Made by a program: the position numbers and the translations under genes. Below, one piece after another: positions 34,391 through 42,155 of a stretch of DNA of 64,000 bases (positions are counted from its first letter, which is position 1; each line of letters starts with the position of its first letter). Source of the stretch: Streptomyces tateyamensis (GTDB lineage: Bacteria; Actinomycetota; Actinomycetes; Streptomycetales; Streptomycetaceae); contig NZ_PYBW01000081.1 in assembly GCF_003205575.1 (NCBI RefSeq), positions 62,001 through 126,000 on the forward strand. Direction: 5' to 3'. The notes under the pieces are model-generated. The model was not told where the DNA came from. It was given only the letters and a program-made list of their open reading frames with translations, and ran no database searches.

Positions 34391-35605
34391 ATGACGGATA
34401 CCAGCGAACCCGACGACCTCACCCTGCTCCGCTCCAGCTTCGCGCTGGTCCAGGAGCACGGCGACAAGCTCACCGGCCACTTCTACGCCACCCTCTTCCT
34501 GCACCACCCCGAGGTCCGCCAGCTCTTCCCGCCGGCCATGGACCTCCAGCGCGACCGGCTCTTCCGGGCGCTGGCGGGCGCCGTGCGGATGATCGACCGG
34601 CCGGAGGAGCTCGGCACCTTCCTGGCCCAGCTGGGCCGCGACCACCGCAAGTACGGGGTGCTCGCCGAGCACTACGCGGCGGTCGGCGACGCGCTGCTGG
34701 CGACCCTGCGCAAGTACGCCGGTGAGGCCTGGAACGACCGCCTGGAGCAGCTCTGGGCATCGGCCTACCAGCAGATCGCGGCCGCGATGAGCGGGGCCGC
34801 CGAGGCCGAGGCCGGCCACACCCCGCCGTCCTGGCTGGCCGAGGTGGTCGGGCACGAGCTGCGCACCCCGGACGTGGCGGTGCTCACGCTGCGCCCCGAC
34901 GCCCCGTTCCCGTTCCGGGCCGGCCAGTACACCACCGTGGAGACCGCCCGCTGGCCCCGGGTCTGGCGACCCTACTCGATCGCCAACGCCCCGCGCCGGG
35001 ACGGCCTGCTGACCCTGCACGTGCGCGCGGTGCCGGCCGGCTGGGTGAGCAACGCGCTGGTCCACCACACCCGGGTGGGCGACGTGGTCCGGCTCGGCCC
35101 GGGCCGCGGCAGCATGGTGCTGCCGGAGCGCCCGGCCCGCCGGGTGGTCTGCGTGGCCGGCGGCACCGGGCTGGCGCCGATCAAGGCGTTGGTCGAGGAG
35201 ATGATCGCCCGGCACCGCCCGCTCACCCTGCACCTGTTCGTCGGGGTGCGCCGCGAGAGCGAGCTGTACGACCTCCAGGCACTGCGCCAACTGGCCGGGG
35301 TCTTCCCGCGGTTGCTGCTGGTCCCGGTGGTCTCCGAGGAGATCGGCTTCGCGGGCGTGCAGGGCCGGCTGCCCGAGGTGGTGCCCGCCCAGGGCCACTG
35401 GAACGAGCACGAGATCTTCGTGGCCGGCCCGGACGACATGGTGGTCTCGATGGTCGAGCAGCTGCACCGGGCCGGCGTGCCGGGCAACCGGCTGCACTAC
35501 GACCTGTCCACCACGCTGGCCGAACTGGACATCACCTCGGGCCTGCTGGACCAGGCGGCGGTGAACCGGCCGTCCCGCGAACCGAGTCAGCGGGACGGCC
35601 GGTGA
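34391..35605 (+). CDS. hmp: flavohaemoglobin-like NO dioxygenase
   Basis: 404 residues: an N-terminal globin domain (about 1-135) with proximal His near 85 in RDHRKYGVLAEHY, and a C-terminal FAD/NAD reductase (about 145-385) with WRPYSIANAPRRDG binding FAD and VCVAGGTGLAPIKALVEEM binding NAD(P)H. Such proteins oxidise nitric oxide to nitrate, using electrons from NAD(P)H. The globin part is somewhat degenerate at the distal side compared with E. coli Hmp, so a related function is possible. ATG chosen at the first Met of the globin domain; no strong ribosome binding site is seen. It converges with the EphD-like gene after 30 bases. Confidence 0.88.
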   Translation: MTDTSEPDDLTLLRSSFALVQEHGDKLTGHFYATLFLHHPEVRQLFPPAMDLQRDRLFRALAGAVRMIDRPEELGTFLAQLGRDHRKYGVLAEHYAAVGDALLATLRKYAGEAWNDRLEQLWASAYQQIAAAMSGAAEAEAGHTPPSWLAEVVGHELRTPDVAVLTLRPDAPFPFRAGQYTTVETARWPRVWRPYSIANAPRRDGLLTLHVRAVPAGWVSNALVHHTRVGDVVRLGPGRGSMVLPERPARRVVCVAGGTGLAPIKALVEEMIARHRPLTLHLFVGVRRESELYDLQALRQLAGVFPRLLLVPVVSEEIGFAGVQGRLPEVVPAQGHWNEHEIFVAGPDDMVVSMVEQLHRAGVPGNRLHYDLSTTLAELDITSGLLDQAAVNRPSREPSQRDGR

Positions 35606-35635: not shown

Positions 35636-37351
35636 CTATCCGGCGTTGATGCGGGCAGCGCGGCGCAGCAGGGCGGGCGAGAGGCGGCCGAGCAGGCGGG
35701 CCGCCTTGGCCTCCACGGTGACCGGCACCACCGGCCGGCCGGTCCGCACCGCCTTGACGATCTCGGCGGCCACCTTCTCCGGCGGGAAGCCCCGGCGGGC
35801 GTACATCTTGGACACCCGGGCCTGCTTGGCGGCCTGCTCGGCCGAGTCCAGCCCGGAGAAGGTGGTGGTGCGGGTGATGTTGGTGTTCACGATGCCCGGG
35901 CAGATCGCGCTCACCCCGATGCCGTGGTCGGCCAGTTCGGCCCGCAGGCAGTCGGAGAGCATCAGCACCGCGGCCTTGCTGGTGGCGTAGGCGGCCAGCA
36001 CCTTGGACGGCAGGTAGGCAGCGGCCGAGGCCAGGTTGACGATGTGTCCGCCCTGCCCGCGCTCGGCCATCAGCGCGCCGAACGCCCGGCACCCGTGGAT
36101 CACGCCCCACAGGTTGACGTCCAGCACCCGCTGCCACTCCTTCTCGGTGGTCTGCAGGAAGGTCCCGGAGTGGCCGATGCCGGCGTTGTTGACCAGCACG
36201 TCCGGCACCCCGTGGGCGGTGGCCACGGTCTGCGCGAAGGCGTCCATCGCGGGGCCGTCGCTGACGTCCACCCGGTAGGCGTGCCCGGCCCCGCCGAGCA
36301 GGGTGACCAGTTCGGCGGTCCGCCGGGCGGCCTCCAGGTCCAGGTCGCAGACCACCACGGTGGCCCGCTGCTCGGCGAAGGCCAGCGCGGTGGCCCGCCC
36401 GATCCCGCTGCCGGCGCCGGTGACCACCACCAGCGGACCGCCCGCCGCGGCGGGCGGCTCGCCGCGCTCGATCCGGGTGGTGAACTCCCGCACCAGCGAG
36501 GCGACCGCGGGCGCCTGGTCCAGCAGCCCCGACCAGTGGGTGGCGTTCAGCTCGCGCCGGGTCAGGTCCGGCACCCAGCGCTCCAGCCCCTCGCTGAGGA
36601 ACGGGCTGACGTAGCGGTCCCGGCGCAGCGTGACCAGCTGCACCGGCACCCGGGTCGGCCGCTCGCGCGGGTGGCGCAGCGCGGGGCGCATGTTGGCCCG
36701 GTACAGCTCGATGCCGCGCACCGCGTCCTGACGCAGCGTCGCCTGCGGGTGCCCGGGGCGCGGGCTGACCTTCTCCAGGTCGCGCAGCACCCGCGGCCAG
36801 GCCCGGGCCAGGCCGAACTTCCAGACGCCCGGCGCCAGGTAGGGCAGGTGGAAGGCGGTGATGTACCAGGAGTGCACCCCCTGGACCAGCAGCTGGCGCA
36901 GGTGGCGCGGGGTGGGCCGGCGCAGCCGGTGCCGGATCCAGTGGCCCATGTGGTCCAGGCAGGGCCCGGACATGGTGGTGTAGGAGGCCAGCCGCCGCTC
37001 GGCGCCGGGCTCGGTGACCGCCTCCCAGGACTGCAGCGAGCCCCAGTCGTGCGCCACCACGTGCACCGGGCGGTCGGGGCTGACCGCCTCGGCCACCGCG
37101 AACAGGTCGCGGGCCAGCAGCTCCAGCCGGTAGCCGGCCCGATCGGCGGGCACCCCGGACTCGCCGGCCCCGCGCACGTCGTAGCGGACCACGTGGTGGT
37201 CGGCGGCCAGCTCTTCGGCCACCTCGTCCCAGACCCGGTGGGTGTCCGGGTAGCCGTGCACCAGCAGCACGGTGGGGCGCTCGGGGTCGCCCTGCTCGAA
37301 GACCGCGAGCTCGATCCCGGCCGAGGAAACGGTCCTGCGCGTGACGGTCAT
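35636..37351 (-). CDS. EphD-like fusion: alpha/beta hydrolase + short-chain dehydrogenase
   Basis: 571-residue two-domain protein. Residues about 1-285 are an epoxide-hydrolase-like alpha/beta hydrolase: HGYPDTHRVWDEV holds the oxyanion loop, VAHDWGS carries the nucleophile Asp, and LNATHWSG the likely catalytic His. Residues about 300-571 are an SDR: VTGAGSGIGRATALAF, NNAGIGHSGTF, LASAAAYLPSKVLAAYATSK with Ser, Tyr and Lys. The same fusion occurs in mycobacterial EphD, linked to epoxide-containing lipids. It is the last gene of a four-gene operon and overlaps the M24 gene by four bases. Epoxide opening followed by alcohol oxidation is the likely chemistry (inference). Confidence 0.88.
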   Translation of the reverse strand: MTVTRRTVSSAGIELAVFEQGDPERPTVLLVHGYPDTHRVWDEVAEELAADHHVVRYDVRGAGESGVPADRAGYRLELLARDLFAVAEAVSPDRPVHVVAHDWGSLQSWEAVTEPGAERRLASYTTMSGPCLDHMGHWIRHRLRRPTPRHLRQLLVQGVHSWYITAFHLPYLAPGVWKFGLARAWPRVLRDLEKVSPRPGHPQATLRQDAVRGIELYRANMRPALRHPRERPTRVPVQLVTLRRDRYVSPFLSEGLERWVPDLTRRELNATHWSGLLDQAPAVASLVREFTTRIERGEPPAAAGGPLVVVTGAGSGIGRATALAFAEQRATVVVCDLDLEAARRTAELVTLLGGAGHAYRVDVSDGPAMDAFAQTVATAHGVPDVLVNNAGIGHSGTFLQTTEKEWQRVLDVNLWGVIHGCRAFGALMAERGQGGHIVNLASAAAYLPSKVLAAYATSKAAVLMLSDCLRAELADHGIGVSAICPGIVNTNITRTTTFSGLDSAEQAAKQARVSKMYARRGFPPEKVAAEIVKAVRTGRPVVPVTVEAKAARLLGRLSPALLRRAARINAG

Positions 37352-38184
37352 GCGGCGGCCCCCTCAAGGCTCGTCCAGCGCCGCACGTGCGGCAGGTCCT
37401 CGTCCAACCAGTAGGCGTCGTCCTCGGTGACCACCAGCAGTTCCTCGAACTTGATGCCGGTGTCCCTGAGGCCGATGTGCGGCTCCACCGCCCACAGGCC
37501 CGGGGTGGGCGCGTGACGCGAGGAGCGGCCGTCGGCCCACAGCGGGGAGCGCCCGTGCAGGCGCTCGCTGATCAGCTCCCGGCCCAGGGTCTGCAGGGTG
37601 CGCAGGCCGAAGCCGAACAGGTTGACCCCGGCCGGGGCCCGGCTGGTGTTGCGGGTCACCTGGTGGCCGATCACCCGGCCAGGGTAGACCTGGTGGCGGT
37701 TGTCGTACCCGTGCGCGGCGATCTGCGCGTCCACGGCGGCGTAGATCTCGTCGAGCGGCCGGCGGGCCCGCACCTCACGCAGGATCAGGTCCCGGTAGAC
37801 CTTCAGGTCCTGGGCCAGCCGGTCCCAGACCGGGTTCTCGCCGACCTTGCCGCCGTAGCCGATGTCGGCGGTGTAGCCGTCCACCACGGGGGCGCAGTCC
37901 AGCACGTACGGCATGCCCTCGCGCAGCACCCGCCCGCCCGCGAAGAACTGCAGCGGGGTGTGGAAGTGCCGGAAGGCGGTGCGGTCGCCGAACCAGGCGA
38001 ACGGCACGTGGAAGAAGTCCTGCACGCCGGCGGCCACCAGGGTGCGGCGCAGCCTGGCGGTGGTCTGACGCTCCGTCACCCCTGGCTCGATCCAGGCCGC
38101 GACCTGCTCGGCGCAGTGGTAGGCGAGCTGCTGGACCTCGCGGAACCGCGCCAGGTCCTGCTCGGTGTACTTGAATCCGGTCAT
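37348..38184 (-). CDS. M24-family metallohydrolase (creatinase/aminopeptidase P fold)
   Basis: 278-residue protein with the pita-bread fold. All five dimetal ligands are visible: two Asp in LDCAPVVDGYTADIGYG, His in VIGHQV, and two Glu in VEPHIGL and KFEELLVV. It is therefore probably an active metallohydrolase. The length fits a catalytic domain without an N-terminal creatinase domain. Its ATG overlaps the reductase stop and its stop overlaps the EphD-like start (both four bases), so it is locked into the operon. That context is odd for a housekeeping aminopeptidase and suggests hydrolysis of an amide or ester in the same pathway. Confidence 0.85.
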   Translation of the reverse strand: MTGFKYTEQDLARFREVQQLAYHCAEQVAAWIEPGVTERQTTARLRRTLVAAGVQDFFHVPFAWFGDRTAFRHFHTPLQFFAGGRVLREGMPYVLDCAPVVDGYTADIGYGGKVGENPVWDRLAQDLKVYRDLILREVRARRPLDEIYAAVDAQIAAHGYDNRHQVYPGRVIGHQVTRNTSRAPAGVNLFGFGLRTLQTLGRELISERLHGRSPLWADGRSSRHAPTPGLWAVEPHIGLRDTGIKFEELLVVTEDDAYWLDEDLPHVRRWTSLEGAAA

Positions 38185-39419
38185 CGCGGCTCGACCTCCA
38201 GGACCAGGGTCTCGCCCTCGGCGGCCCGCGAGACGCAGGGCAGCAGGGCGCCGGCCGCGCGCTCCTCGGCGGTGAGGCGGCGGTCGCGGTGTTCGGGGGT
38301 GCCGGCCAGCAGCTGGACCTTGCAGGTCCCGCAGAAGCCCTGGTGGCAGGAGTAGGGCTGGTCGGGGTCGGCCTCGCGCAGCACGTCCAGCGCGGACCGG
38401 TCGGCGGGGACCGGCAGGGTGCGGCCGCCGGGGCCCAGTTGCAGGGTGAACGGCCGACCGTCGGCGATCGGGGCCGCGCCGAACCGCTCGAAGTGCAGCG
38501 CGGTCGGCCGGCGCCGGGGTGCCTGCCGGCCGGAGGCCGGGGGCCCGTCCAGGGCGTCCAGCGCCTCCTGCACGGCAGCCAGCATCGGGGCCGGGCCGCA
38601 GCAGTAGACGGCACCGCCGGCGACGGCCCGGGCCAGCAGCTCGGCACCGGTGGGGACTCCCCCGGCGAGCAGGGTGACCCTCCCCCCGCCTCCGGCCGGG
38701 GGCACCCCCGTCGCGGCCAGCGCCGTCAGCTCCTCGGTGAACGGCATCGAGGCCCGGCTGCGCCCGGCGTGCACCAGGTGCCAGTCCAGGCCGCGGCGCT
38801 GCGCCTCGCGGGCCATCGGCAGCAGCGGGGTGATGCCGATCCCGCCGGCCACCAGCAGCACCTGGGCCTCGCCGCAGAAGGCGAAGCCGTTGCGCGGCCG
38901 GCGCGCCGTCAGGCGGGCGCCCAGGTGCAGCTCGTCGTGGATCTCGACCGAGCCGCCGCCCCCGCCGGTGATCCGGCGCACCGCGATCCGGTAGCCGAAC
39001 CGGTCGGCGGGGTCGCCGCAGAGCGAGTAGTGGCGCTGCCGGCCCGAGGGCAGGGTCAGCCGCAGGTGGGCGCCGGGCTGCCAGGCGGGCAGCGGGGCGC
39101 CGGCCGGGTCGGCCAGGTGCAGCTCGACCACCTCCTCGGCGACCGGGCGGTGGGCGGTGACCACCAGGGTCAGCGGGGCACGGCCGCGGCTCTCGGGGCG
39201 GCGCGGGCTGCGGCGCAGCAGCGGGGCGCCCATGGCGGGGCTGTAGGCGTCGCCGAACCGGGTCAGGAAGGCCATCAGCCGGTCGGCCTGCGGGCGGCCG
39301 TACAGGTCCGGGGGCGGGTTCTCCAGGTCGTGCCGGGCGTCCCGGCCGAAGGCCAGGGCGGGCGCGGGGTCGGTGGCCCGGGTACGGGGCGCGGCGGGCT
39401 TCTTGGCGCGTGGTGTCAT
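38181..39419 (-). CDS. FAD/2Fe-2S oxidoreductase (oxygenase reductase type)
   Basis: 412-residue electron-transfer protein. After an N-terminal extension of about 85 residues comes a ferredoxin-NADP reductase module: RHYSLCGDPADRFGYRIA binds FAD, VAGGIGITPLLPMAREAQRR binds NAD(P), and VYCCGPAPML closes the domain. A C-terminal plant-type ferredoxin has CHQGFCGTC (spacing C-x4-C-x2-C) and a fourth Cys in LLPCVSRAAEGE. This order (FNR then ferredoxin) is that of reductases feeding oxygenases. It lies 18 bases after the di-metal protein gene and overlaps the M24 gene, so it probably supplies electrons to the di-metal protein (inference). Confidence 0.9.
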   Translation of the reverse strand: MTPRAKKPAAPRTRATDPAPALAFGRDARHDLENPPPDLYGRPQADRLMAFLTRFGDAYSPAMGAPLLRRSPRRPESRGRAPLTLVVTAHRPVAEEVVELHLADPAGAPLPAWQPGAHLRLTLPSGRQRHYSLCGDPADRFGYRIAVRRITGGGGGSVEIHDELHLGARLTARRPRNGFAFCGEAQVLLVAGGIGITPLLPMAREAQRRGLDWHLVHAGRSRASMPFTEELTALAATGVPPAGGGGRVTLLAGGVPTGAELLARAVAGGAVYCCGPAPMLAAVQEALDALDGPPASGRQAPRRRPTALHFERFGAAPIADGRPFTLQLGPGGRTLPVPADRSALDVLREADPDQPYSCHQGFCGTCKVQLLAGTPEHRDRRLTAEERAAGALLPCVSRAAEGETLVLEVEPR

Positions 39420-39437
39420 CGGGTGCCTCGCTCGGGT

Positions 39438-40328
39438 TCAGTGCGCGCCGGCGGCGGCGCGGGCGGCGGGCGAGCCGGCCAGGTAGCTGAGCGCCTGCGC
39501 GCTGGAGCCCTCCTGGGTGGGGTGGTAGCCGGGCTTGAGGTAGCGGATCCCCGAGCGCAGCGACTGCACCGGGTCGGGCAGCATGCCGCGCCGCGCGACG
39601 TGCCAGGCCGCCTTCCAGCTCGGCTGGACCCGCCCGTCCAGGCTCGGGTCGGCGGCCAGCAGGAAGCGCACGCCGCGCACCCACAGGTGGACCAGCAGCG
39701 GGCCGCCGAGCAGCATGCCGCGCACCCGGCGCAGGTAGCCCGGGTCCAGGTGCACCAGCAGGTCGAAGGCGACGCTGCGGTGCTCCACCTCCTCGGCGCC
39801 GTGCCAGCGCAGCAGGTCCAGCATGGTCGGATCGGCGCCGGCCCGGTCCAGGCCGGGCGAGTTGAGCGCCCAGTTGCCCAGGAACGCGGTGAAGTGCTCG
39901 ATCGCCGCCACGAAGGCGACCCGCTCGATCACGTTCTCCCGGCGCCGGCGGGCCGTCAGCCGGGGCTTGGGGCCCAGCACCCGCTGGAACAGCCAGGCGA
40001 TCTGGCGCACGTACGGTCGCGGGTCCAGGCCCTGGGCCAGCAGGTGGTCCAGCACCTGCTGGTGCGCCTCGGCGTGGATCGCCTCCTGGCCGACGAAGCC
40101 GAGCACCTCCTCGCGCAGTTGCTCGTCCCGGACCAGCGGCAGCGCCTCCTTGAACACCTCGACGAACCAGCGCTCGCCCTCGGGCAGCAGCAGGTGCAGC
40201 ACGTTGATGGTGTGGGTGGCGAACGGCTCGTCGGGGATCCAGTGCAGCGGCAGCCCGGTCCAGTCGAAGTGGACGTCACGAGGCTCCAGCACGAGGTCGG
40301 TGTGCACCTCTGGGACGGTTCTGGGCAT
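39438..40328 (-). CDS. PF10118-type di-metal protein ('metal-dependent hydrolase')
   Basis: 296-residue mostly helical protein. EEVLGFVGQEAIHAEAHQQV, AAIEHFTAFLGNW and RWHGAEEVEHRSVAFDLL provide E, ExxH, E(H) and EExEH patterns like those of ferritin-fold di-iron carboxylate enzymes. The family is labelled metal-dependent hydrolase in databases, but the motifs and the reductase encoded next to it suit an oxygenase or desaturase-like activity. It is the first gene of the four-gene operon, and ribosome binding uses GAGGTT-like sequence before the ATG. The substrate is probably hydrophobic, judging by the EphD-like partner (inference). Confidence 0.8.
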   Translation of the reverse strand: MPRTVPEVHTDLVLEPRDVHFDWTGLPLHWIPDEPFATHTINVLHLLLPEGERWFVEVFKEALPLVRDEQLREEVLGFVGQEAIHAEAHQQVLDHLLAQGLDPRPYVRQIAWLFQRVLGPKPRLTARRRRENVIERVAFVAAIEHFTAFLGNWALNSPGLDRAGADPTMLDLLRWHGAEEVEHRSVAFDLLVHLDPGYLRRVRGMLLGGPLLVHLWVRGVRFLLAADPSLDGRVQPSWKAAWHVARRGMLPDPVQSLRSGIRYLKPGYHPTQEGSSAQALSYLAGSPAARAAAGAH

Positions 40329-40525: not shown

Positions 40526-40960
40526 GTGATCACAGCACGTGACATCATGCACAGCGGCGCCCAGTGCGTGAACGGTGACCAGTCCCTGATGGATGCCGCG
40601 ATGATGATGCGGGACAAGGGCGTTGGCGCCCTGCCCATCTGCGGCCCGGACAAGCGCCTGATGGGCATCATCACGGAGCGCGACATCATCACCCGATGTA
40701 TCGCCGAGGGCCGGGACCCGTCCGCGATGAAGGCCCGGGACCTGGGCGGCCACCTGCACTGCGTGCGCGCCGACGACGACCTGGGCACCGTGCTGAAGAA
40801 GATGGAGCAGCACCAGATCCGCCGGATGCCGGTGATCGACAACGACCAGCTGGTCGGCATGATCACCGAGAAGGACCTGGCGATGGGCCACAAGATGGCC
40901 AAGGGCGTCACCGACCAGCAGATCATCGACTTCATGGACTCGATGTTCGTCAAGCACTGA
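40526..40960 (+). CDS. tandem CBS-domain protein
   Basis: 144-residue protein consisting of two CBS domains (about residues 1-60 and 70-130): GVGALPICGPDKRLMGIITE with RDI after it, and IRRMPVIDNDQLVGMITEKD with LA after it. CBS pairs bind adenosine nucleotides and sense energy or redox state. Stand-alone actinobacterial versions are often induced under hypoxia. GTG start with GAGAGGAG upstream. Monocistronic, ended by an excellent terminator. Partner unknown. Confidence 0.9.
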   Translation: MITARDIMHSGAQCVNGDQSLMDAAMMMRDKGVGALPICGPDKRLMGIITERDIITRCIAEGRDPSAMKARDLGGHLHCVRADDDLGTVLKKMEQHQIRRMPVIDNDQLVGMITEKDLAMGHKMAKGVTDQQIIDFMDSMFVKH

Positions 40961-41031: not shown

Positions 41032-41469
41032 CTACTGCTGGAAGGCGGCCGTGAACTGCTCCAGGCCGCCGCTCGCGGCCGCGATCACCGCGTGGTGGTG
41101 GTAGTCGCGGGTGTGCACGATCCGGCCGCCGCGCGCCCGGACCAGCTGGATGTTGGGCGCCTCGAAGGTGCGCCCGGACGGCAGGTGGCGGCCGACGTAG
41201 TCGAACTCGGCGATCACCACCTCGGGATCCGCACTCTGGTGGATCACCAGGTTGCGCACCGTCAGCTCGTACGGCGGGTTGCCGCCCAGCTCGTCGAACC
41301 GGGCCTGCAGCGCGGCCCGGCCCACCATCCGCTTCGGCTCGAACGGCGAGAACGGCACCTCCACCACCGCGTCCTCGGCGTACAGCTCGGGCGTCTGGGA
41401 CCAGCGGCCCGAGGTGATCCGGTCGATCAACTCCTCGAAGAGCTCGCGCGCCGTGGCATTGTCGGACAT
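41032..41469 (-). CDS. SnoaL/NTF2-like protein
   Basis: 145-residue cone-shaped alpha+beta barrel protein of the SnoaL-like family. Typical elements: LFEELIDRITSGRWSQTPEL, the YAEDAVVEVPFSPFEPKRM strand-loop, and the C-terminal IVHTRDYHHHAVIAA. Family members are isomerases, hydrolases or ligand binders. It is divergent from a TetR gene across 107 bases that contain two identical 16-bp operator-like repeats, so TetR probably controls it. The substrate is unknown. Confidence 0.8.
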   Translation of the reverse strand: MSDNATARELFEELIDRITSGRWSQTPELYAEDAVVEVPFSPFEPKRMVGRAALQARFDELGGNPPYELTVRNLVIHQSADPEVVIAEFDYVGRHLPSGRTFEAPNIQLVRARGGRIVHTRDYHHHAVIAAASGGLEQFTAAFQQ

Positions 41470-41508
41470 GGTTACCCCCAGATCGACGACAGAGGGGTCG
41501 CCTAGAAT

Positions 41509-41552
41509 CGGACTGGCGACTCCGGTTACGACGATACGGACTGGCGACTCCG
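41509..41552. promoter_or_regulatory. paired TetR operator candidates (16-bp direct repeat)
   Basis: CGGACTGGCGACTCCG occurs at 41509-41524 and again at 41537-41552, 28 bases apart. Each is itself an imperfect palindrome (CGGA...TCCG). They lie in the divergent SnoaL-TetR promoter region and are the obvious binding sites for the adjacent TetR protein. Confidence 0.65.
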
Positions 41553-41576
41553 ATTGTCCAGGGGCAGAGAGGGTCA

Positions 41577-42155
41577 GTGGTGAGCACGGATCAGGCGCGC
41601 CCGCTGCGCGCGGACGCGGCGCGCAACCGCGCCCGACTGCTGGACGCCGCGGAGGAGGTGTTCACCGCGCGCGGCACCGGGGTGCGGACCGAGGAGGTCG
41701 CCAAGGCGGCGGGGGTCGGGGTCGGCACCCTGTTCCGGCACTTCCCGACCAAGGAGGCGCTGCTGCAGGCGGTGCTGGTGCGCCGGATGGAACGGCTCGG
41801 CCAGGAGGCCGAACGGCTGCGCGGCGAGCTCGGGCCGGGCGAGGCCTTCCTCGCCTTCTTCGCCCTGGTGGTGGACGCCTCGCCGAGCAAGAACGAGTTC
41901 GCCGACGCCCTCGCCGCGGCCGGGGTGGACGTGCGCGAGGCCACCCAGGAGGCCGGCAAGGTGGTGCTGCAGGCCGTCGCCGAGCTGCTCGCCGACGCCC
42001 AGCGGGCCGGCCGGGTCCGCCCCGACCTGGGCGTCCCGGAGGTCACCGCGCTGATGGTCGGCGCCAGCCGCGCGCTGGAGCACCTGGACCCGCAGGACGG
42101 CCCCGCCCGGCGGCGCGCCGTCGAGGTGGTGCTGGCCGGACTGGGAGCCGGGTAG
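41577..42155 (+). CDS. TetR-family regulator
   Basis: 192-residue TetR protein. N-terminal HTH: RARLLDAAEEVFTARGTGVR then EEVAKAAGVGVGTLFRHFPT with KEAL. The C-terminal domain (SBP-type TetR_C) is helical, with FLAFFALVVDASPSKNEFAD. Two adjacent GTG codons (41577, 41580) are possible starts after GAGAGGG. It is divergent from the SnoaL-like gene and separated from it by a 16-bp repeated operator-like sequence, giving a regulator-target pair. Confidence 0.9.
   Translation: MVSTDQARPLRADAARNRARLLDAAEEVFTARGTGVRTEEVAKAAGVGVGTLFRHFPTKEALLQAVLVRRMERLGQEAERLRGELGPGEAFLAFFALVVDASPSKNEFADALAAAGVDVREATQEAGKVVLQAVAELLADAQRAGRVRPDLGVPEVTALMVGASRALEHLDPQDGPARRRAVEVVLAGLGAG

Follow-up and report, generated by a model that had tools for sequence, protein, structure and literature searches.

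The ferritin-like enzymes whose active sites come nearest to the one considered here are those of the AurF/CmlI/AzoC N-oxygenases (PF11583) and the dimetal halogenases CylC and NocO. According to the available text of PMC12101540, nine active-site positions are common to AurF and the dimetal halogenases, the latter with QExxH and HxxDExxH motifs, a 3-His/4-carboxylate ligand mode is largely unique to N-oxygenases, and the assays of NocO contained NADPH, ferredoxin, and ferredoxin reductase. For AzoC, the ligand order E, E, H, E, H, E, H is given in the available part of PMC6783550. Here, we analyzed a 64,000-nucleotide stretch (the window) of the Streptomyces tateyamensis genome (7.46 Mb in 439 contigs), in which a four-gene operon begins with a PF10118 protein (MH) and continues with a reductase (RED). 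MH is probably a dimetal oxygenase fed by RED, rather than a hydrolase, a reading drawn from its predicted fold, its ligand signature, and its neighbors.

The Pfam label of PF10118 is "predicted metal-dependent hydrolase." Among the open-access papers listed in our searches, none ascribed an oxygenase role to PF10118, and none was seen to test it for hydrolase activity. In the available text of PMC8960859, PF10118 is given as a protease candidate group, and that of PMC4428276 places a "metal-dependent hydrolase" near propane monooxygenase genes. The available parts of PMC10034137, PMC12239570, PMC8406957, and PMC10401708 hold nothing decisive on the role of PF10118.

Predicted fold and metal-ligand signature of MH

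The features of MH are as follows.

39438..40328, minus strand: MH, PF10118 protein of 296 aa, predicted ferritin-like dimetal oxygenase
40074..40088, minus strand: QExxH motif of MH (Q81, E82, H85) in predicted helix 69-98, invariant in 117/117
39780..39803, minus strand: HxxEExxH motif of MH (H176, E179, E180, H183) in predicted helix 167-194, invariant in 117/117

MH scored 260 bits against PF10118 (Metal_hydrol; cut-off, 33.2), its family and its sole Pfam match at an E value of ≤10; it stayed below the PF11583 cut-off. Sequence searches up to an E value of 10 matched MH to no PDB chain. PF10118 was also matched by 80/80 of the aligned nearest relatives, which gave sub-threshold matches to Ferritin_2 (12/80), AurF (4/80; best E value, 0.019), and COQ7 (2/80) and, in single members, to unrelated families. 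Among the relatives found in named genomes, the MH most similar to that of the window (86%) belongs to Kitasatospora humi, and the host is therefore probably a Kitasatospora.

The AlphaFold2 model of MH, built from 80 alignment rows, had a predicted local distance difference test score (pLDDT) of 92.2 and a predicted template modeling score (pTM) of 0.89. It contains four long helices (35-65, 69-98, 126-155, and 167-194). Among the highest-ranking Foldseek matches were ribonucleotide reductase (RNR) R2, R2lox, acyl-ACP desaturases (2uw1 and 1oq9), the azoxy synthase VlmB, and an aldehyde-deformylating oxidase. With VIA-align, Z reached 14.8 for R2, 14.5 for R2lox, 13.8 for MMOH, and 13.7 for CmlI, barely above the value of about 13 that helical bundles can attain through arrangement alone. 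Among the matches listed, all 50 rows were RNR R2, R2lox, MMOH, or CmlI (Z, 13.7 to 14.8). MH is accordingly modeled as a ferritin-like four-helix bundle.

The candidate ligands were examined in an alignment of 117 PF10118 sequences (the window, loci L030 to L117 and L145 to L171, and one second match inside a locus), which takes in distant members, some about 30% identical to the window MH and some below the threshold used. E52, Q81, E82, H85, H89, E144, H176, E179, E180, E182, and H183 were identical in all 117. They include a di-iron pattern of E52, QExxH (81-85), E144, and HxxEExxH (176-183), which follows the E/ExxH/E/ExxH plan with one element per predicted helix. The full 3-His/4-carboxylate set (E52, E82, H85, E144, H176, E180, and H183) was likewise present in 117/117. 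An earlier sequence-only reading of this DNA had recognized the pattern as E/ExxH/EExEH and overlooked the third histidine, H176, and the fuller HxxEExxH. The structure prediction that it proposed gave a ferritin-like bundle with one candidate ligand element per predicted helix, and the result that it had named as refuting, a model lacking a two-metal site, did not appear.

All nine AurF/halogenase positions in the available text of PMC12101540 are matched in PF10118 as E, QExxH, E, and HxxEExxH. HxxEExxH occurred in 19/19 close PF11583 proteins, HxxDExxH occurred in 4/6 distant ones, and neither was found in the one R2 and the one desaturase (FA_desaturase_2) compared. Because of H176, the predicted site is nearer to those of AurF and the dimetal halogenases than to those of classical hydroxylases.

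Probable electron supply by RED

RED, the second gene of the operon, has two features.

38181..39419, minus strand: RED, 412-aa reductase of the phthalate dioxygenase reductase type
38235..38348, minus strand: [2Fe-2S] cysteine stretch of RED (C358, C363, C366, C395)

RED aligned with phthalate dioxygenase reductase (2pia) over residues 83 to 407 at 175 bits and matched Fer2 at its C terminus (51 bits) and NAD_binding_1 (28 bits). The resulting flavin-NAD-[2Fe-2S] order bears out the oxygenase-reductase domain order described earlier, and the four cluster cysteines are present in 24/24 aligned reductases. PaaE was the best NCBIfam match, at 78.7 bits (cut-off, 420.8). The first 80 or so residues form an N-terminal extension whose PPDLxGR...DR motif recurs in the RED proteins of L030, L039, L040, L054, and L108; Streptomyces-group RED proteins have a hydrophobic N terminus in its place. 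The extension is possibly a docking or membrane element.

In 80/80 nearest relatives, RED shares the strand of MH and is no more than 3.5 kb from it, often overlapping MH or a few bases away; in mycobacteria, EphD (see below) sits between the two. Since these 80 relatives had been picked by similarity, two further samples were taken. In the phylum sample, 17/296 genomes had matches and 27 places were examined, 14 of them with RED beside MH. At the 19 places that were 43 to 60% identical to the window MH, RED was found in 14, a ferredoxin pair in 2, and neither in 3. In the second sample, 92 of the 121 genomes around genome G074 were matched (E value, ≤1e-20); in one order at least, MH relatives are thus widespread. 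Of 60 places fetched, 57 had RED, 1 had the ferredoxin pair, and 2 had neither. Pseudomonadota were sampled through plasmid records only. The next RED-like gene in the window's genome scored just 63 bits; thus, the adjacency is not due to an abundance of such genes. On a tree of 102 rows, the presence of RED changed four times.

The strongest argument comes from loci in which RED is replaced. In L151, a 62-aa ferredoxin gene overlaps MH by 4 bases, and a gene for a 403-aa ferredoxin reductase follows 4 bases further. In L161, where the ferredoxin gene and MH likewise share 4 bases, a ferredoxin and ferredoxin reductase pair occupies the RED slot, and the same pair lies beside MH in L206. These three loci belong to one clade, and the swap is therefore counted as one replacement. 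That this slot can hold either of two electron-transfer modules unrelated to each other argues that MH is a redox enzyme.

An apparent MH-RED fusion, the 650-aa open frame of L092, was discounted, as its junction (292-341) had a pLDDT of <50 and looks frame-shifted.

Other surroundings were seen around distant PF10118 genes. The one on plasmid pTol5 of Acinetobacter sp. Tol 5 (L114, 665-9471) lies by PaaI thioesterases and a run of 2Fe-2S ferredoxin, cytochrome P450, and FAD oxidoreductase genes; Acinetobacter accounts for 56/78 of the plasmid records with PF10118. Near other distant members, L116:8666-9586 and L171:9629-10549 matched AurF below threshold (about 20 bits; cut-off, 29.6) and adjoin short-chain dehydrogenase (SDR) and flavoprotein monooxygenase (FMO)-type genes.

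Downstream partners and gene order

Two further genes complete the operon, the second encoding a hydrolase-SDR fusion of the EphD family.

37348..38184, minus strand: M24 metallohydrolase, 278 aa, a minority partner
36452..37351, minus strand: EphD-like fusion, N-terminal alpha/beta hydrolase of the epoxide hydrolase type
35636..36451, minus strand: EphD-like fusion, C-terminal SDR

All four genes are on the minus strand, spaced by +18 (MH-RED), -4 (RED-M24), and -4 (M24-EphD) bases. These positions and spacings had been reported by the sequence-only reading, and its four family assignments were confirmed by Pfam and NCBIfam. M24 matched Peptidase_M24 (PF00557) at 77 bits; the EphD-like fusion (35636-37351) matched adh_short at 173 bits and Abhydrolase_1 at 75 bits, and NF004514 spans all of it (836 bits; cut-off, 455). 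Opposite-strand genes border the operon on both sides (40526-40960 and 34391-35605). The convergent gene at 34391-35605 (plus strand) looks, from its translation, like one for a flavohemoprotein with globin and reductase parts. Upstream, at 41032-42155, a SnoaL-like gene (52 bits) and a TetR regulator face each other; this TetR differs from the TetR_C_46 type that trails MH-RED in 40/80 relatives.

The order MH-RED-M24-EphD recurs in 12/80 nearest relatives (L030 to L039, L042, and L044). The permuted order M24-EphD-MH-RED is found in L054, L093, a mobilizable Dietzia plasmid (L117), L207, L208, L228, and L232, although in the last two the EphD match was confined to the hydrolase half, and a Burkholderia locus (L111) has M24-EphD-MH without RED. 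With the same order in 12/80 and permuted orders elsewhere, the four-gene grouping is beyond chance. The conserved core, however, is two genes, PF10118 and the reductase, not four. The conserved four-gene neighborhood anticipated earlier thus exists in other genomes but is not a fixed unit.

An EphD-type hydrolase half lies beside MH in 41/80 nearest relatives and 32/60 second-sample places, and its presence changed at least 13 times on the 102-row tree. In the EphD-type hydrolases near MH, D102, Y163, and Y217 are present in 54/54, H272 in 50/50, and D245 in 52/54. Two cap tyrosines mark epoxide hydrolases, in which an Asp nucleophile, a His, and an acid have the catalytic roles. The PDB chains nearest to the N-terminal half of EphD are epoxide hydrolases as well, and this half appears to be catalytically complete as an epoxide hydrolase type. 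EphD-MH fusions, hinted at by long stop-to-stop frames, were rejected because these frames contained MH but not EphD.

M24 is rarer, at 15/80 nearest relatives and 4/60 second-sample places. Its five ligands (D96, D107, H174, E234, and E248), all noted earlier, are invariant in 19/19; it matched no PDB chain at an E value of ≤0.001. The amide or ester hydrolysis once proposed for it drew no support from this analysis.

FMO-type flavoproteins lie beside MH in 7/80 nearest relatives and 16/60 second-sample places (in one, L252, on the other strand), and one large clade carries an FMO in place of EphD. The motif FxGxxxHxxxW, which marks Baeyer-Villiger enzymes, is present in 19/21 FMO matches. 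A mutual exclusion of EphD and FMO was considered, the two occurring together in only 2/60 places. It is not claimed, because FMO is mostly bound to one clade (5 changes) and a test on independent pairs gave P = 1.

Some loci carry other genes near MH. On a Rhodococcus fascians plasmid (L113), an LEH-family protein follows RED in the position of EphD; it has Glu where 2bng has a conserved, catalytic Asp, and this one locus gives weak support for such a substitution. A 641-aa protein without a Pfam match directly precedes MH in L068 (7960-9885), and a comparably long gene stands there in many Streptomyces loci. In L046 (7816-8952), a 378-aa protein without a Pfam match lies between an SDR and the EphD-type hydrolase, ahead of MH-RED, and genes of similar length occupy the same place in L047 to L049. 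Two genes after MH in L248 (2001-4903) read like wax-ester-synthase-type proteins, a hint of lipid context.

Proposed route, rival explanations, and known systems

In the route that we propose, NAD(P)H would reduce the flavin of RED, and electrons would pass through its [2Fe-2S] cluster to the putative dimetal site of MH, formed by four Glu and three His. In some loci, ferredoxin and ferredoxin reductase would be the donor instead. The reduced site would activate O2 and oxygenate a carbon atom in a substrate that is either unsaturated or aliphatic. In EphD-bearing loci, an epoxide is a credible product, to which we give slightly less than an even chance, the neighboring EphD being the sole pointer to this step. 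The hydrolase half of EphD would then open the epoxide with water, the fused SDR would oxidize the alcohol, and M24 might hydrolyze some bond. A Baeyer-Villiger-type partner would suit a ketone formed by the SDR. We infer the metal identity, the use of O2, epoxide versus alcohol, the substrate, and the order of the steps.

Several results weigh against an oxygenase fed by RED. Besides the small margin in Z, Foldseek with the MH model gave zero matches at an E value of ≤0.001. HHalign comparisons of MH with AurF, R2, and a desaturase were weak or nil; for PF11583, the probability was 6.7% and the E value 0.0055 (controls, about 0.5), so that AurF offers a likeness in active-site plan, not demonstrated membership. 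L150, L152, and L160 in the phylum sample have neither RED nor the ferredoxin pair next to MH, nor do 8/8 distant places of that sample; distant PF10118 members may be doing something else. An electron donor beside MH is also missing from L229 and L262 of the second sample and from Burkholderia L111. AlphaFold2 on the natural MH-RED frame of L092 showed no docking, and at a pTM of 0.56 it provides no docking evidence. Finally, in 34/80 nearest relatives (the Streptomyces group), MH is accompanied solely by RED and a TetR regulator, with no hydrolase; thus, an epoxide is not implied for all MH loci.

The family name is the sole point in favor of a metal-dependent hydrolase with RED as an unrelated neighbor. 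This explanation is very unlikely, since RED lies beside MH in 80/80 and 57/60 places and is swapped for another electron-transfer pair in one clade, and both the predicted fold of MH and its candidate ligands are those of dimetal oxidases. Somewhat less improbable, but still unlikely, is an AurF-like N-oxygenase that would oxidize an amine with electrons from RED after M24 frees it from an amide. The HxxEExxH signature shared by MH and 19/19 close PF11583 proteins, and missing from the R2 and the desaturase compared, favors this, as does a ligand mode that PMC12101540, in its available text, calls largely unique to N-oxygenases. However, the window MH has no PF11583 match and AurF appears in only 4/80 relatives, Q81 stands where AurF has an acidic residue, and the commonest enzyme partner, an epoxide hydrolase, is not required for N-oxidation.

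It is just as unlikely that RED supplies a dehydrogenating dimetal oxidase, such as a desaturase, while EphD acts on another compound. Desaturases likewise require an electron donor, and 2uw1 and 1oq9 are among the Foldseek matches, but H176, present in 117/117, is missing from the one FA_desaturase_2 protein compared, and the epoxide hydrolase would be left without a role. A dimetal halogenase like CylC or NocO, with the alpha/beta hydrolase stripping the halide, is the least probable of all. The hydrolase retains the two cap tyrosines, an epoxide hydrolase feature, and MH has E179 where HxxDExxH has Asp. The invariant Q81 would fit the QExxH of the halogenases in the available text of PMC12101540, but E144 is also invariant, whereas the equivalent halogenase residue is described there as not absolutely conserved.

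Oxygen chemistry by MH with electrons from RED remains the preferred reading. The undescribed oxygenase system proposed earlier is supported in its predicted fold, ligand set, reductase, epoxide hydrolase, and neighborhoods but loses the fixed four-gene unit. If this is true, a curated family named hydrolase, for which sequence searches detect no solved relative, would move to O2 chemistry. A 3-His/4-carboxylate site, largely unique to N-oxygenases in the available text of PMC12101540, would then act on carbon with its own reductase, and the pair would be a compact two-protein biocatalyst. More tentatively, and with a little less assurance than for the epoxide, we suggest that PF10118 is a further unrecognized branch of 3-His/4-carboxylate ferritin-like enzymes working on carbon. 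As a two-component oxygenase, it would pair a single polypeptide with RED or, in other cases, with ferredoxin and its reductase. Swappable downstream modules (epoxide hydrolase-SDR, Baeyer-Villiger-type flavoprotein, or M24 hydrolase) would join it in oxidizing and cleaving unsaturated, perhaps lipid-like compounds. On this more tentative view, many actinobacterial genes labeled "metal-dependent hydrolase" would encode oxygenases.

Compared with known systems, MH resembles the AurF/CmlI/AzoC N-oxygenases in its ferritin-like fold (CmlI Z, 13.7) and in the ligand order E, ExxH, E, HxxxExxH of AzoC (PMC6783550, available part). It differs in having no Pfam or convincing profile match to PF11583, a Gln before the first ExxH, and its own reductase and epoxide hydrolase alongside. 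With CylC and NocO, the latter a dimetal enzyme of the same plan, MH shares QExxH, a His three residues ahead of the second acidic pair (PMC12101540, available text), and the need for an electron source. Motifs compared by description set it apart, HxxEExxH in MH versus HxxDExxH, so that the halogenase motif pair is incomplete, and the window operon has no halogenase context. The halogenases themselves are characterized by a halide-dependent reaction whose substrate is bound to an acyl carrier protein.

R2lox and RNR R2 are the top structural matches (Z, 14.5 and 14.8) and follow the same E/ExxH/E/ExxH plan, but they are only 9 to 16% identical to MH over the aligned part, and HxxxExxH is missing from the one R2 compared. 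To our knowledge, neither has a RED-type partner. The multicomponent monooxygenases and the PaaABCDE epoxidase likewise combine a dimetal enzyme with a flavin/[2Fe-2S] reductase (MMOH Z, 13.8; among NCBIfam models, RED matches PaaE best, although far under its cut-off). Unlike them, MH is one polypeptide in an operon without a second subunit or coupling protein. The mycobacterial EphD epoxide hydrolase-SDR has the fused architecture that NF004514 spans over its whole length in the window protein, whereas the fusion in the window is coupled to MH and RED.

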